Part shown: positions 3,514 through 24,391 of the stretch, one piece after another | Position numbering within the stretch: position 1 is the first letter of the stretch | How the letters are laid out: every line of letters starts with the position of its first letter | Source of the DNA: a virus | IMG/VR virus record: IMGVR_UViG_3300020436_001424 | Location: 1 to 32,991 of that record | Reading direction: 5' to 3' (one strand) | DNA length: 32,991 bases | Notes under the pieces: model-generated | Database searches by the model: none | What the model was told of the DNA's origin: nothing | The model's input: the letters and a program-made list of their open reading frames with translations, nothing else | Made by a program: the position numbers and the translations under genes

Positions 3514-4086
3514 TTATTGAAACTTCGTGCCTAATGTCCAACCTACTAATGATTTTCTAAAACCTGTTTTTACAGGCAATACTCTATGCCATAGACCAGA
3601 ATAAAATATAATCATTGTGCCTGGTGTAATTTTATCAAACTTATGAAATGTTGTTTTCTTTGGGTCTGGGTGTGGTTCGCAAATCTCTAATTCACCACCA
3701 GTATACTCATCATTTAAACATAATGTAAAACTTACTTTTCGTACCGTCTGGTCTCTATAAGCGTGAGTATGTGTATCTTGGTGCCAACCATAATGATGAC
3801 CTACGCCATAAGTTGTATATTGGAAATCTTCAAACTTCTTTAGTTTAAAGTGCCACATACATTCCTCGTTTGCTTGATTGATTGCAGGAGTTATATTGTC
3901 TATAAGATATTTGTCATTTAAGAAACAGCCTTTGCTATCTCTTATTGTATTCATACCTTCTTTGCCGTGAATTTTTAAGTCAACAAGTTTTTTCTGTTTT
4001 GCTATCTCGTCAACCTTTTGTAGAAACTCTTTACTAAAGGCATTATCTCTACGCCAATAAATCTTATTGCCTATGTAGTGTGCCAT
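3514..4086 (-). CDS. 2OG-Fe(II) oxygenase, prolyl-4-hydroxylase type
   Basis: 190-residue non-haem iron dioxygenase expected to use 2-oxoglutarate and oxygen to hydroxylate a protein or small substrate. The iron triad is visible: HQD in YGWHQDTH, and the distal histidine in GLWHRVLP, followed about ten residues later by the arginine of GFRKSLVGW that would hold 2-oxoglutarate. Length and core agree with the prolyl-4-hydroxylase-like proteins common in marine T4-like phages. Its ATG overlaps the uvsY stop (TAATG). The substrate is unknown; position in the recombination operon hints at early expression. Confidence 0.88.
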   Translation of the reverse strand: MAHYIGNKIYWRRDNAFSKEFLQKVDEIAKQKKLVDLKIHGKEGMNTIRDSKGCFLNDKYLIDNITPAINQANEECMWHFKLKKFEDFQYTTYGVGHHYGWHQDTHTHAYRDQTVRKVSFTLCLNDEYTGGELEICEPHPDPKKTTFHKFDKITPGTMIIFYSGLWHRVLPVKTGFRKSLVGWTLGTKFQ

Positions 4087-19942: not shown

Positions 19943-20749
19943 TTATCCTATCATCATTGCTGGGTTTAACTCAAACGAAGTCCTAATTTCAGTTTCTAAT
20001 TTCTCTATGTCTTGTAGAGCTTCTGTATAAATTTGTTGTCCGTTTAAGGTAACACCACCAATCATTGCTACTCCATTAAATTTAGAGAGATTGGCACCCC
20101 ATTGTCTTTTGATTAATTGTGTTGTGTATCTCTTTAACCAGATATCGTTATAAACATCTGTATATGTGTCTGGGTCTAATTTTCTATATGCTTCTATTAC
20201 TAGATATTCACCTACTTGTAAATCGTTTTCCCAGTCCATATCAATGTATAATCTGTTATCGTGTTGATTAAATCTTAATGGCTTTTCTCCTACTAATATA
20301 TGGTCTAAAAAATCTAATTGTCTTAAAACAATGTCATAGTTGATAACACTTGTTGATGAAAAATCGTACAAGTCATTTAGTCTTAATTGATATCTAACAT
20401 CAAATAAGTTTAAGTTTCCTTTATTAGAAAAAGGAAAAATATTAATTACAGATATTACGCTTTCAGGTACAACGATATATGCGTTGCCTTCTTTCCAAGT
20501 AGTGGTTACACTATTCTTGGTTACACCTTCAGAGCTATCTGTTAGTATTCTAGTTTTATCATTTTGAGTATACTGATATTTTAAATATGTTCTTCTGATA
20601 CCATCATAGTGATATTGTTGATAATATTGTAATGCTTCGTCAACTCTATCGTCTATCTGGTCATCATCAACATTTATTTCAATAACAGGATGCCCTAACG
20701 CTCTTTTAGCGTATGAAATTAATGTTTGTCTTGTATTAGGAGTTGCCAT
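19943..20749 (-). CDS. 13: Neck protein gp13
   Basis: Head-completion and neck protein that binds the portal side. 268 residues (T4: 309). Typical features: opening TPNTRQTLISYAKRALGHPV, then INVDDDQIDDRVDEALQYYQ, later IWLKRYTTQLIKRQWG and a C-terminal ELNPAMMIG. GAGGAT precedes the start. First gene of the 13-14-15 run and next to the bilin cassette. Confidence 0.95.
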   Translation of the reverse strand: MATPNTRQTLISYAKRALGHPVIEINVDDDQIDDRVDEALQYYQQYHYDGIRRTYLKYQYTQNDKTRILTDSSEGVTKNSVTTTWKEGNAYIVVPESVISVINIFPFSNKGNLNLFDVRYQLRLNDLYDFSSTSVINYDIVLRQLDFLDHILVGEKPLRFNQHDNRLYIDMDWENDLQVGEYLVIEAYRKLDPDTYTDVYNDIWLKRYTTQLIKRQWGANLSKFNGVAMIGGVTLNGQQIYTEALQDIEKLETEIRTSFELNPAMMIG

Positions 20750-20772: not shown

Positions 20773-20780
20773 TATTTATA
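20773..20780 (-). promoter_or_regulatory. T4-type late promoter for genes 13-14-15
   Basis: TATAAATA on the minus strand, overlapping the stop codon of the small membrane-protein gene; leader of about 18 bases with a GAGGAT ribosome site. It restarts virion-gene transcription after the bilin cassette. Confidence 0.75.
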
Positions 20781-20976
20781 ATTTCCACCAGGTACAATCC
20801 TTTATATACTTTGCTATTTCATCATCTTTATCAAAATATACGCATAGGAGGGCGATAGCGAGGCCTACACCGATTAATCCTTGCATAAACGGACTATGTA
20901 AGATAAGAAACCAAAGTACATCTAAACCGTTGCCTCCGTCTACTAATATCCAATCTATTTCTTCTTCTATGTTCAT
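20776..20976 (-). CDS. Small single-pass membrane protein, last gene of the bilin cassette
   Basis: 66 residues, acidic N-terminus (MNIEEEIDWILVDGG), a hydrophobic stretch from about 20 to 48 (VLWFLILHSPF to IALLCVYF) that can form one or two membrane helices, and a charged tail ending CTWWKL. Not recognised. The start overlaps the hemA stop (ATGA), so it is translated with the cassette. It may tether a cassette enzyme or act on the envelope; both are guesses. Could instead be a late lysis-type or structural micro-protein. Confidence 0.6.
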   Translation of the reverse strand: MNIEEEIDWILVDGGNGLDVLWFLILHSPFMQGLIGVGLAIALLCVYFDKDDEIAKYIKDCTWWKL

Positions 20977-22166
20977 TTCTTTTTACCACACCTTTTTAGT
21001 GCTGATTTTAATTTAACGACCATATCAAATATATGAGCGTCTGTATGAAAAGGTGTTGGTGTAAATCTTAATCTTTCTGTTCCTCTTTTAACCGTAGGCC
21101 AGTTAATAGGTTGTACATAGATACCTTCTTTGTAAAGTAATTCATCTGATACTGCTTTACATTTGATAGGATCACCTATGATAACAGGAACAATATGACT
21201 ATCGTTTTTTAAAACTTCTATACCTTGTCTTTCAATCTCTTCTTTTGTTTTTCTTGCTCGTTCTTGTATCTTTTCTCTTAATTCAGGATGGTCTTTAACA
21301 TACTTAATACTAGTTAACGCCCCAGCACATATTACTGGCGATAAACTAGTTGTAAATATAAACGCACTTGCCATACTTCTGATTGCGTCTATAAACTCTC
21401 TCTTTCCTGTAATGTACCCACCTTGTACACCATAGGCTTTTGCTAGCGTTCCGTTTATAATGTCAACTTCAACTTTGTCTCTTTCACAAATACCAGCACC
21501 TGTTTCACCATATAAACCAACAGCGTGTACTTCATCAATATAAGTTATTGCATTATATTTTTTACTTACTTCAATAATTTCTTTTACAGGTGCAATATCA
21601 CCGTCCATAGAATATACACTTTCAAATACAACACATTTAGGTCCTGGGTTAGACATTAATATACTTTCTAAATCTTGTACATCATTATGTTTAAATATTT
21701 CTTTTCTACATTTACTATGCCTTAATCCTTGTATGATTGAAGAGTGATTTTCTTCGTCTGATATAAACAATAAGTCAGGTATAATCTTACCCATTGTTTC
21801 TAAAGTTGTTTGATTAGCGTTATACGCTGAAGTAAATAATAAAGCACTTTCTTTCTTATGTAATAATGCAAGTTCTCTTTCTAACGCATTATGATAATGT
21901 GTTGTGCCTGATATATTTCTAGTTCCACCTGCACCTGCACCAGCAGTTTCAAGTGCTGTTTTCATACTATCAATTACATATGAGTGTTGACCCATACCTA
22001 AATAGTCGTTTGAACACCAGTTAACTATATTTTTGATTGAGTATTTTGAATACCATATGGCATTAGGATAATCGCCACGCTTACGAATAATGTCGTTAAA
22101 TGTTCTATAACGACCATCATCTTTATAGTCTTTTATTACTTGTTGAAATTTGTCTAAATGTTCCAT
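20973..22166 (-). CDS. hemA: 5-aminolevulinate synthase (C4 pathway)
   Basis: PLP enzyme joining glycine and succinyl-CoA to make 5-aminolevulinate, the first tetrapyrrole precursor. 397 residues from the ATG at 22166, which overlaps the bilin reductase stop (TAATG); the extra 11 codons upstream are discarded. Signatures: WCSNDYLGMGQH (50-61), GGTRNISGT (80-88), DEVHAVGLYGETGAG (211-225) and GTLAKAYG with PLP lysine K243. GTLAKA and the NDYLGM form point to aminolevulinate synthase rather than the related KBL or BioF enzymes, and synthesis of a bilin precursor fits the cassette. Alphaproteobacteria use this route, cyanobacteria do not. Confidence 0.93.
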   Translation of the reverse strand: MEHLDKFQQVIKDYKDDGRYRTFNDIIRKRGDYPNAIWYSKYSIKNIVNWCSNDYLGMGQHSYVIDSMKTALETAGAGAGGTRNISGTTHYHNALERELALLHKKESALLFTSAYNANQTTLETMGKIIPDLLFISDEENHSSIIQGLRHSKCRKEIFKHNDVQDLESILMSNPGPKCVVFESVYSMDGDIAPVKEIIEVSKKYNAITYIDEVHAVGLYGETGAGICERDKVEVDIINGTLAKAYGVQGGYITGKREFIDAIRSMASAFIFTTSLSPVICAGALTSIKYVKDHPELREKIQERARKTKEEIERQGIEVLKNDSHIVPVIIGDPIKCKAVSDELLYKEGIYVQPINWPTVKRGTERLRFTPTPFHTDAHIFDMVVKLKSALKRCGKKK

Positions 22167-22897
22167 TATTCTGCATAAGGAAATAATGCGTCTGTACAAA
22201 ACTCTTCAATATCTTTTTCAGGTAATCCTAGTGCTTTCATTGTTCTAGGTGTATGAGGATTTTCTCTTTGAAATTTTGCGTATCTGTTTTGTGCTTCTTT
22301 TACTTCCTTCTCGCTTTTAATATTTGAATTTAAATTAAAATCTTGTTTATATCTTCTTAATAAAGTAAAGTAAGGTCCCAAATCAGTACACGCTAAACTT
22401 AATGCGTTTGTCAATTCTTTTTCTGTATTAATATTACCTGCGGCTATCATACCTGGACTAAAAATTTGTAATGCCCAATCAGGTAATTCTCTTACTTTTG
22501 ATGGTTCGTAAGTTTTACTTTCTTCACAAAACCATTCTACCATCGGATGGTCCATTTCTCTCTTGCCACTTAAAGGTGACCAATCGTGGAAAAAACCAGT
22601 AACCTTATTAGGTCCTGCGATAACATCTAAACCCCATATAGGTGCTGGTGTATGAAAATGAGGTATAACAACACAATGAAACATATAAAGTTTTTTACTT
22701 TCTCTAGCGTCAACTACATCTATATGACATCTTCTTGCTTCAGGTGTTTCCCAAACTCTATTAATCCAACCATCTTCAGGTCTATTAAATTTTGCCATAC
22801 TTTCTTCAACAATCTCTTTACCTTCGTCATCAAATTTTGACATAAGATTTTTAGTTGCGTCTTCTAACATTTCCCATATTCTACTTCGTTGTGCCAT
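22166..22897 (-). CDS. pcyX: Ferredoxin-dependent bilin reductase, PcyX/PebS type
   Basis: Reduces biliverdin with electrons from ferredoxin. 243 residues starting MAQRSRIWEML at 22897, with AGAGG upstream; the longer frame to 22993 runs inside the haem oxygenase gene and is rejected. Family features: RRCHIDVVDARE (56-66), IWGLDVIAG with the conserved catalytic aspartate D91, FFHDWSPL (102-109), and the C-terminal NPHTPRTMKALGLPE. PcyX enzymes, described from uncultured ocean phages, are related to PcyA but make phycoerythrobilin. PebS or PcyA activity cannot be excluded from sequence alone. Overlaps the haem oxygenase end by 17 bases and hemA by one. Confidence 0.85.
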   Translation of the reverse strand: MAQRSRIWEMLEDATKNLMSKFDDEGKEIVEESMAKFNRPEDGWINRVWETPEARRCHIDVVDARESKKLYMFHCVVIPHFHTPAPIWGLDVIAGPNKVTGFFHDWSPLSGKREMDHPMVEWFCEESKTYEPSKVRELPDWALQIFSPGMIAAGNINTEKELTNALSLACTDLGPYFTLLRRYKQDFNLNSNIKSEKEVKEAQNRYAKFQRENPHTPRTMKALGLPEKDIEEFCTDALFPYAE

Positions 22898-23540
22898 CAC
22901 CAAACCTCTTTTCGTTATTCTTAATAAATTGCAACATTTCTTTAAATAAGTCAGTTGCAAAACCAAAACATTGTCTTGCTTCATAGACAACATTATTTAC
23001 ATTTTTATCTTTATCGCTAGCGTCATTATAAACATAATGACTATCTACTGCTAATCTTAATGCTTCTTTAATCTCGTTTGTATCTTTATATGTGATACCG
23101 TGTTCTGGATTTTTGTTAAATTTAAATTCATAATACTTACCAAGACCAGGTACTTTTCTTTTTATCATTTGACCACCTGATAAATCGCCCATATGTCTAA
23201 CATAGATATGTGCCATTATTTTTTCAGGACAATCCATTAATTCTTTATTTGCATAATCAACATACTTTCTTGTACTCTCCATCATCATAGGTTGATGAGC
23301 ATAAGTCCACAACTCATCAAAATCTGCTTTGATAGCAGGTGCTCTTCTAATAAAAGGAAACTTATCTAATAAACCTTCTGCCATTGCAAGAGGTTCAAGT
23401 ATATTATAACATTGGTGTTGATTGAAAAGATAATTTGCGTATACTTCAGGATGTATTTTACCAGACATTAATATCTTAACGAACCCTTGTCTTTCTGCTT
23501 CTTTGTGGTGTTCCCAAGTGAGTTCTTTAAGAGTTTTCAT
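22881..23540 (-). CDS. ho1: Haem oxygenase
   Basis: Opens haem to biliverdin IX-alpha, CO and iron; supplies the substrate of the bilin reductase encoded next. 219 residues, usual for bacterial and phage enzymes. Proximal haem ligand H12 in the HKEAE motif, the YLFNQHQCYNILE helix, and the distal glycine-rich helix YVRHMGDLSGGQ are all intact, so it should be active. Overlaps the stop of the paralogue upstream by 14 bases and the reductase start downstream by 17, so the three are co-translated. AAGGAT lies before the start. Confidence 0.94.
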   Translation of the reverse strand: MKTLKELTWEHHKEAERQGFVKILMSGKIHPEVYANYLFNQHQCYNILEPLAMAEGLLDKFPFIRRAPAIKADFDELWTYAHQPMMMESTRKYVDYANKELMDCPEKIMAHIYVRHMGDLSGGQMIKRKVPGLGKYYEFKFNKNPEHGITYKDTNEIKEALRLAVDSHYVYNDASDKDKNVNNVVYEARQCFGFATDLFKEMLQFIKNNEKRFGDGTTK

Positions 23541-24336
23541 TGATAGGTAATCCTTGTTCTTCTTTCTTTTTCTTTTCGTCTAAATCATCTTGTACATATT
23601 TTTTTAAATCTTCAGGTACATCTTCAATCTTCATAGTTTTAATATGTACAGCGTTTGCCATAAGACCTGCTCTTACCATTAGGTCTTCTGTTTCATCTTT
23701 GTTACCATCTGCTACATTGTTTGTACCAGATTTATCTTTTGACATTTCTTTTACAGCAACAGCAAACATATCTACTTTAGGTTTTATTTCTTGCCAATAT
23801 TCTTCGTGTGCTTCTAAATCACCTAATAGTTGGTGTCTGTACTGCCAAGATATTTTAACTTCTTCAAGTACTTCTTCTCTTCTTTCACTATCATATGCTT
23901 TTTTAAATTCTTTTTCTATGTCTTCTACTAATACAGAAGACTTTAGATTTCTATGTATCTCACTCATCAATGCCCATAAGTGTGCAAGTATCTTTTCTCT
24001 ATCTTCTTTAATACTATGTAAATGTTCTATGTAAGATTGACAAGCATACATCACAGCAGGTTGAACATACTTGCCTTTTTCTTCTATACCATTTAAAGGC
24101 CAGTTTTTCTGATACTCTTCTCTAATAAGAGTGCCAACATATATTGGGTCTTTGTCTTTTGTGAGTTTGAGATTGTGTGCGTGAAATTCAGTAGAGGTTA
24201 TGATATTTGCCTGATTAAACAGGAAAGTACCTACAACCTCTATGTAATCTAATTTCTTATCTTTATATCTTTCGTAGAAAGGATGATTTTCGTATCTAGT
24301 TCTTGCTTTGTCAACAAATTCAATAACTTGTTCCAT
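23527..24336 (-). CDS. Haem-oxygenase-like paralogue without the haem-binding motifs
   Basis: 269 residues starting MEQVIEFVDKARTRY at 24336, where TTGGAG is well spaced; a GTG two codons earlier is adjacent to that site and less likely. The FLFNQ helix lines up with YLFNQ of the haem oxygenase next door, and LAHLWALMSEIHRN with its distal helix, so an HO-like helical fold is likely. But the proximal histidine position appears to be arginine (R12) and the GDLSGG motif is absent, replaced by SEIHRNLKSS. Many H and E residues in helices could instead bind metals, as in HO-like di-iron enzymes. The last ~75 residues are charged and probably extended. Function unknown. Confidence 0.7.
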   Translation of the reverse strand: MEQVIEFVDKARTRYENHPFYERYKDKKLDYIEVVGTFLFNQANIITSTEFHAHNLKLTKDKDPIYVGTLIREEYQKNWPLNGIEEKGKYVQPAVMYACQSYIEHLHSIKEDREKILAHLWALMSEIHRNLKSSVLVEDIEKEFKKAYDSERREEVLEEVKISWQYRHQLLGDLEAHEEYWQEIKPKVDMFAVAVKEMSKDKSGTNNVADGNKDETEDLMVRAGLMANAVHIKTMKIEDVPEDLKKYVQDDLDEKKKKEEQGLPINENS

Positions 24337-24383
24337 TTTCACTCCAATTGTTAATATAGTGACCTATCGGTCTATAATGTAAT

Positions 24384-24391
24384 TATTTATA
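24384..24391 (-). promoter_or_regulatory. T4-type late promoter for the bilin cassette
   Basis: TATAAATA on the minus strand, directly after the stop of the RCC1-repeat gene. The predicted leader of about 40 bases carries TTGGAG. It is the only promoter seen for the five-gene cassette. Confidence 0.75.

Follow-up and report, generated by a model that had tools for sequence, protein, structure and literature searches.

The IMG/VR virus record IMGVR_UViG_3300020436_001424 (32,991 nucleotides; hereafter the window, meaning this whole stretch) is a 33-kb fragment of a phage genome in which five overlapping genes on the minus strand, from 24336 to 20776, lie between RCC1-repeat tail genes and the neck gene gp14, with phage structural genes flanking the cassette on both sides. 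In order from the promoter these encode a haem oxygenase (HO)-like protein of 269 aa (23527-24336), an HO of 219 aa (vHemO; 22881-23540), a PcyX-type ferredoxin-dependent bilin reductase (FDBR) of 243 aa (22166-22897), a 5-aminolevulinate synthase of 397 aa (vAlaS; 20973-22166), and a small protein of 66 aa (20776-20976); successive overlaps are of 14, 17, 1, and 4 nt. Start codons were refined to ATG 24336 for the HO-like gene, because some relatives have TTG in place of the GTG at 24342 or lack it, to ATG 22897 for the reductase, because homology to the PcyX structure 5OWG begins at that codon, and to ATG 22166 for AlaS, replacing TTG 22199. The initial annotation of this DNA had read the locus as five overlapping genes for an HO-like paralogue, an intact HO, a PcyX-type reductase, a 5-aminolevulinate synthase, and a small membrane protein; all of these open reading frames are present, chained by overlaps of 1-17 nt, the five assignments were borne out by the analyses below, and the upper limit it had given, 24391, is the exact end of the late promoter box TATAAATA. 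It had also implied that the union of AlaS, HO, and PcyX in one phage cassette was new, which is not so, since hemO-pcyA/X-valaS cassettes were published with biochemistry in 2024 (Wegner et al., 2024; PMC11480375). The part of which its text does not speak is the first gene behind the late promoter, for a conserved pseudo-haem-oxygenase; the three-enzyme cassette was already known.

The HO-like protein had no Pfam hit, and Pfam searches with 15 members of its family, like a search of the family profile against PDB sequences, returned chance matches only. Its kinship emerged from profile comparison: a profile of six HO-like copies matched phage HO at a probability of 95 (0.1 in a control against the reductase), and hhalign aligned the 15 HO-like sequences with 71 PcyX-linked phage HOs at a probability of 98.97 (E 7e-18) over 166 columns, with no match of the 15-sequence profile to a cyanophage HO or a TenA. 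A first structure model from six sequences was discarded as too poor (pLDDT, the predicted local distance difference test, 52), and an AlphaFold model from 15 sequences reached a pLDDT of 77. When this model was compared with PDB folds by Foldseek the top 24 matches were all haem oxygenases, AetD, which binds two Fe2+, coming further down, and the best viral fold match was a phage HO (root-mean-square deviation 2.9 A). Since individual Foldseek E-values are only about 0.003, homology is argued from profile and fold in concert; judged by the two together, the protein is a true HO paralogue with a predicted HO fold.

The residues on which haem oxygenase chemistry depends are consistently replaced. 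His12, the proximal ligand, is present in 69 of the 71 phage HOs (the other two have gaps) and is Arg in all 15 HO-like sequences, and the distal Gly118, Asp119, and Gly122 have become Glu, Ile, and Asn (Glu126, Ile127, and Asn130 of the HO-like protein), again in 15/15. Because both the proximal His and the distal Gly-Asp-x-x-Gly are lost throughout, the gene was not classed as a haem oxygenase; an HO fold, here predicted, without the His ligand is what characterizes a pseudo-haem-oxygenase (pseudo-HO). The replacements are themselves conserved, Arg12, Ser125, Glu126, Ile127, and Asn130 being invariant in the 15 sequences, some of which are only 37% identical to the copy in the window. Ratios of nonsynonymous to synonymous substitution rates (dN/dS) of 0.18-0.46 indicate purifying selection and therefore that the gene is kept as a protein, although its ratio exceeds that of HO in every pair for which both were computable. 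The gene lies directly before HO in 24 contigs besides the window, which is every tight-cassette contig reaching that far (some are probably one phage sampled twice), and every full-length copy examined is intact and adjoins HO. No homologue was found in 50,697 phage records, nor in bacterial genomes by a weak scan with short patterns, and no description of a phage pseudo-HO was found in a literature search with poor coverage of subscription papers. A further family (A5), of 218-257 aa, lies between an RCC1 tail gene and HO in nine Mosig-like contigs (L050, L054, L057, L062, L064, L066, L067, L071, and L082); over 68-70 columns its N-terminal part is similar to the pseudo-HO (probability 93), and owing to this weak relationship it was not counted as a relative.

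The second gene encodes, as judged by its sequence, a haem oxygenase (PF01126 at 1e-23; PDB haem oxygenases up to 1.8e-13; 42-46% identity to the HO of the phage Mosig), with the proximal His12 and the distal GDLSGG of the GDxSGG pattern in place and the key residues conserved. The third matched PF05996 at 3e-18 and, in the PDB, PcyX (5OWG) at 8e-64 vs. about 1e-11 for PcyA, and it scored 69 bits with the NCBIfam PcyA model, below the cut-off of 206 bits. Its Asp60, His74, and Asp91 correspond to PcyX Asp55, the position of PcyA His88, and PcyX Asp86, with Asp55 replacing Glu76 of PcyA, and a tree placed it on the PcyX side, apart from cyanophage PcyA and from two bacterial-bin sequences marked by the motif HLK. 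By these sequence characters the reductase is of PcyX type, with phycoerythrobilin as its predicted product. The bin "Rhodobacteraceae Water_Bin34" (G014, L221-L223) holds three bilin reductases, two of them with HLK at the site of PcyX Asp55, and two AlaS loci, and a Neomarinimicrobiota bin (G015, L220) holds one PcyX-type reductase and one AlaS; both bins likely contain phage contigs. The fourth gene scored 572 bits with the equivalog model TIGR01821 (cut-off 339) and matched the synthase of R. capsulatus at 7.6e-129, its Lys243 aligning with the pyridoxal phosphate lysine of that enzyme, K248 (PMC11480375); it is by homology a C4 5-aminolevulinate synthase. At the haem-feedback position His342 it has Lys, and the alignment ends before the C-terminal Cys (Cys400). 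The 66-aa protein at the end of the operon has one predicted transmembrane helix (maximum Kyte-Doolittle score 2.12 over 19 residues) and homologues of 59-66 aa after AlaS in relatives; no significant family was found for it in Pfam, PHROG, or NCBIfam.

The box TATAAATA upstream of the operon (24384-24391, minus strand) is one of seven in the window, all on the coding strand and six of them no more than 60 nt ahead of a gene start, a placement that differs from that of other AT-only 8-mers (P 2.6e-4). It is this placement that constitutes the evidence, because the total count is not above chance. Most relatives have the box ahead of the HO-like gene, L004 and L095 with a single mismatch, and both elements of a T4-type late operon, the box and a gene for the late sigma factor gp55 (840-1409), occur in the window; the operon is thus predicted from its sequence to start at a T4-type late promoter. 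A second box (20773-20780, minus strand) marks the start of the neck-gene unit, with gp14 at 20749. Between the operon promoter and the first gene lies a hairpin, GACC-GATA-GGTC (24361-24372, minus strand), whose folding energy is by itself not unusual and whose pairing is kept in 12 relatives, with changes on both sides at three of the four pairs. By eye it was not seen after the other six boxes; it may end upstream transcripts or act in the leader.

Elsewhere the window carries genes of a T4-type phage (TerL, TerS, portal, major capsid, sheath, tube, and neck proteins besides gp55). The identity of TerL is 74.6% with that of Mosig, a phage of Pelagibacter HTCC1062, and 64% with those of the next phages; for gp14 the identity with Mosig is 84%, and Mosig carries a hemO-pcyX pair at the same site. 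In a tree the phage AlaS is sister to the AlaS of two SAR11 bins (SAR11 IIa; 68-70% identity), one of which has the gene on a chromosomal-looking contig adjoining a HemN-type radical SAM gene. By sequence kinship the phage resembles Mosig and is related to SAR11 phages, and on all of these grounds its hosts are probably SAR11 ocean bacteria, which agrees with the alphaproteobacterial host suggested by the initial annotation. It should be noted that the "putative ferrochelatase" annotated in Mosig (L012:2423-3193) and its relatives, beside 2-oxoglutarate (2OG)-Fe(II) oxygenases, has no Pfam match, and that the PHROG named ferrochelatase also matches the 2OG-Fe(II) oxygenase at 3514-4086 of the window, which makes the name doubtful.

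Close relatives of the AlaS were identified in 56 IMG/VR loci, where the gene lies in a tight cassette before gp14, between TerS and TerL, or alone. The order pseudo-HO, HO, PcyX, AlaS, small protein, gp14 is repeated in 24 records besides the window, and since the cassette recurs in many contigs it is not a product of chance or of assembly. When the window was compared with L006 and L007, identity was far higher for AlaS (96-100%) and gp14 (94-99%) than for HO (76-77%), the reductase (82-83%), and the pseudo-HO (55%), a pattern which points to recombination inside the operon. Other relatives have a gene of about 100 aa ahead of HO; the suspicion that it encodes a ferredoxin found no support. 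HO-PcyX pairs also occur in other large phages (L047, L048, L049, L051, L052, and L059; one contig of 357 kb), and the genes beside them resemble, by eye, small heat-shock protein, DnaK, and ClpS.

We consider it likely that a Mosig-like pelagiphage expresses the cassette late in infection, as an auxiliary metabolic operon for making phycoerythrobilin, with the pseudo-HO as a pigment binder or as a partner of HO. Gene content, residues, predicted fold, conservation, promoter, and kinship were observed in this work, and the three enzyme activities are carried over from characterized relatives. In such a scheme gp55 would transcribe the operon from its promoter along with the structural genes, and the phage AlaS would boost the haem precursor and so feed de novo haem synthesis, for which the HemB-to-HemH enzymes of the host would complete the route. 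The phage HO would then open haem to biliverdin, which PcyX with ferredoxin would reduce to phycoerythrobilin. The initial annotation had called the cassette complete from 5-aminolevulinate to a pink bilin; this is too strong, since the route between aminolevulinate and haem has to be supplied by the host: the genes from porphobilinogen synthase to ferrochelatase are not in the window, and neither is one for ferredoxin. The pseudo-HO, with its fold and without the residues for coordination of the haem iron and activation of oxygen, would most likely bind a porphyrin or bilin, or pair with HO, and might steer or shield a reactive pigment; it is the best candidate, a putative one, for a bilin partner inside the operon. 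A bolder version, in which pelagiphages evolved a dedicated pseudo-HO from their own HO, made late together with HO, PcyX, and AlaS and binding porphyrin, biliverdin, or phycoerythrobilin for a phage-specific use of pigment in a host without bilin biology, is put forward tentatively, as possible rather than probable.

Several points weigh against a pigment-making operon of this kind. Consistent with the initial annotation, no photosynthesis gene was found among the matches to the window proteins and no bilin-binding partner came into view: ten longer phage relatives (up to 177 kb) contained no psbA, GAF, or phycobilisome domain, and only two of the ten a ferredoxin. HO, bilin reductase, and the phytochrome PHY domain were not found in 197 genomes, partly incomplete, from the family to which locus L139 belongs (Pelagibacteraceae, SAR11 IIa bin), which we take as the putative host family, although other haem-degrading families were not searched for. 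Since no acceptor was found in either set, the pathway is left without a visible purpose. Furthermore, the activities are predictions for these particular sequences, the host is a deduction, the window is a 33-kb fragment, and the pseudo-HO may serve a function that has nothing to do with tetrapyrroles. The supply of precursor in the same 197 genomes was also surveyed: HemB was present in 172, AlaS passed the cut-off in only 23, and glutamyl-tRNA reductase passed it in none, its matches being short and weak and lying around a single part of the model. Most sampled members thus seem to have no recognisable route to 5-aminolevulinate, whereas the family has been stated in print to use the Shemin pathway only, though the search could have missed a route.

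Of the other explanations the one that survives best, though we hold it rather improbable, is that haem is opened for the release of iron or for the removal of host haem proteins at takeover, the bilin being waste and AlaS repairing the loss. A role in iron supply is reported to have been discussed (PMC11480375), and the failure to find a bilin acceptor in relatives or host-family genomes fits it. A bilin reductase is however unnecessary for iron release, and the late promoter suggests action at assembly rather than at takeover. Among the uses of the bilin that the initial annotation had offered, iron release is moreover weaker than suggested there, since iron from newly made haem should bring no net gain when ferrochelatase has just spent that iron; with AlaS placed beside HO this would favour the bilin, and not iron, as the wanted product. 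Less probable still is that the operon is merely the published vhemO-pcyX-valaS cassette with the HO-like gene as a decaying, functionless duplicate. The three-gene cassette is indeed published, and the lost active site and the dN/dS above that of HO are what decay would leave; against this stand the intact reading frame in all full-length copies, the constant position beside HO, the dN/dS of 0.18-0.46, and the five residues held invariant across distant sequences. We also think it quite unlikely that the host uses the bilin as chromophore in a photoreceptor or antenna: phage-made phycocyanobilin assembled a phytochrome in E. coli (PMC11480375) and cyanobacterial phycobilisomes can be supplied by PcyX and PebS (PMC13197396), yet the PHY domain occurred in 0/197 putative host-family genomes and GAF or phycobilisome domains in 0/10 phage relatives. 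That the HO-like protein catalyses a different reaction, as a haem-oxygenase-like diiron oxidase, is suggested by AetD among the fold matches and is equally unlikely, given that haem oxygenases outrank AetD, that the family profile matches phage HOs and not TenA, and that the conserved polar residues form, by eye, no obvious set of diiron ligands.

Why phages of non-phototrophs make bilins is a published question, to which the conserved, inactive-looking HO relative in the operon adds a concrete, testable candidate for a protein partner of the pathway and the late promoter adds a place in time. To our knowledge, it would be the first viral pseudo-HO to be described. If the host family indeed has no HO, bilin reductase, or phytochrome, as the search suggests, the phage would bring a chemistry its host lacks.

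Wegner et al. (2024) reported hemO-pcyA/X-alaS cassettes, complete or broken, in pelagiphage-like phages, and the three adjacent genes of the window, hemO, FDBR, and alaS in one phage contig, constitute such a cassette. The likeness extends to the same three enzymes in tight order in myovirus-type phages near pelagiphages, to a PcyX-type reductase as in the marine members, and apparently to a vAlaS without a haem-feedback residue. The three enzymes of the freshwater phage CB_2 were shown to be active; its reductase is a PcyA without PcyX Asp55, whereas the reductase of the window has this residue. The text of that paper describes no HO-like fourth gene, small membrane protein, or late promoter, and it puts the closest cellular AlaS at about 55% identity, compared with 68-70% here (PMC11480375). 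Mosig (EXVC030M, MT647606) has HO and PcyX in the same location, immediately ahead of gp14; it differs in the 2OG-Fe(II) oxygenases and annotated ferrochelatase before HO, and neither AlaS nor an HO-like gene was found in it. PcyX 5OWG shares the catalytic Asp, His, and Asp, although the group of the window branches separately on the PcyX side of the tree. The hemO-pcyA-alaS island of Bradyrhizobium ORS278 similarly joins the three enzyme types in an alphaproteobacterial setting, with an adjacent phytochrome gene of which none was seen in the window (PMC11480375). Finally, Arabidopsis HO2 and Plasmodium PfHO resemble the phage protein in that their HO fold lacks the His ligand, which HO2 likewise replaces by Arg (PMC11634067). 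These are eukaryotic plastid proteins, whereas the phage pseudo-HO, which has in addition lost the distal Gly-Asp-x-x-Gly, is related to phage HO and is encoded in one operon with an HO of the active type.

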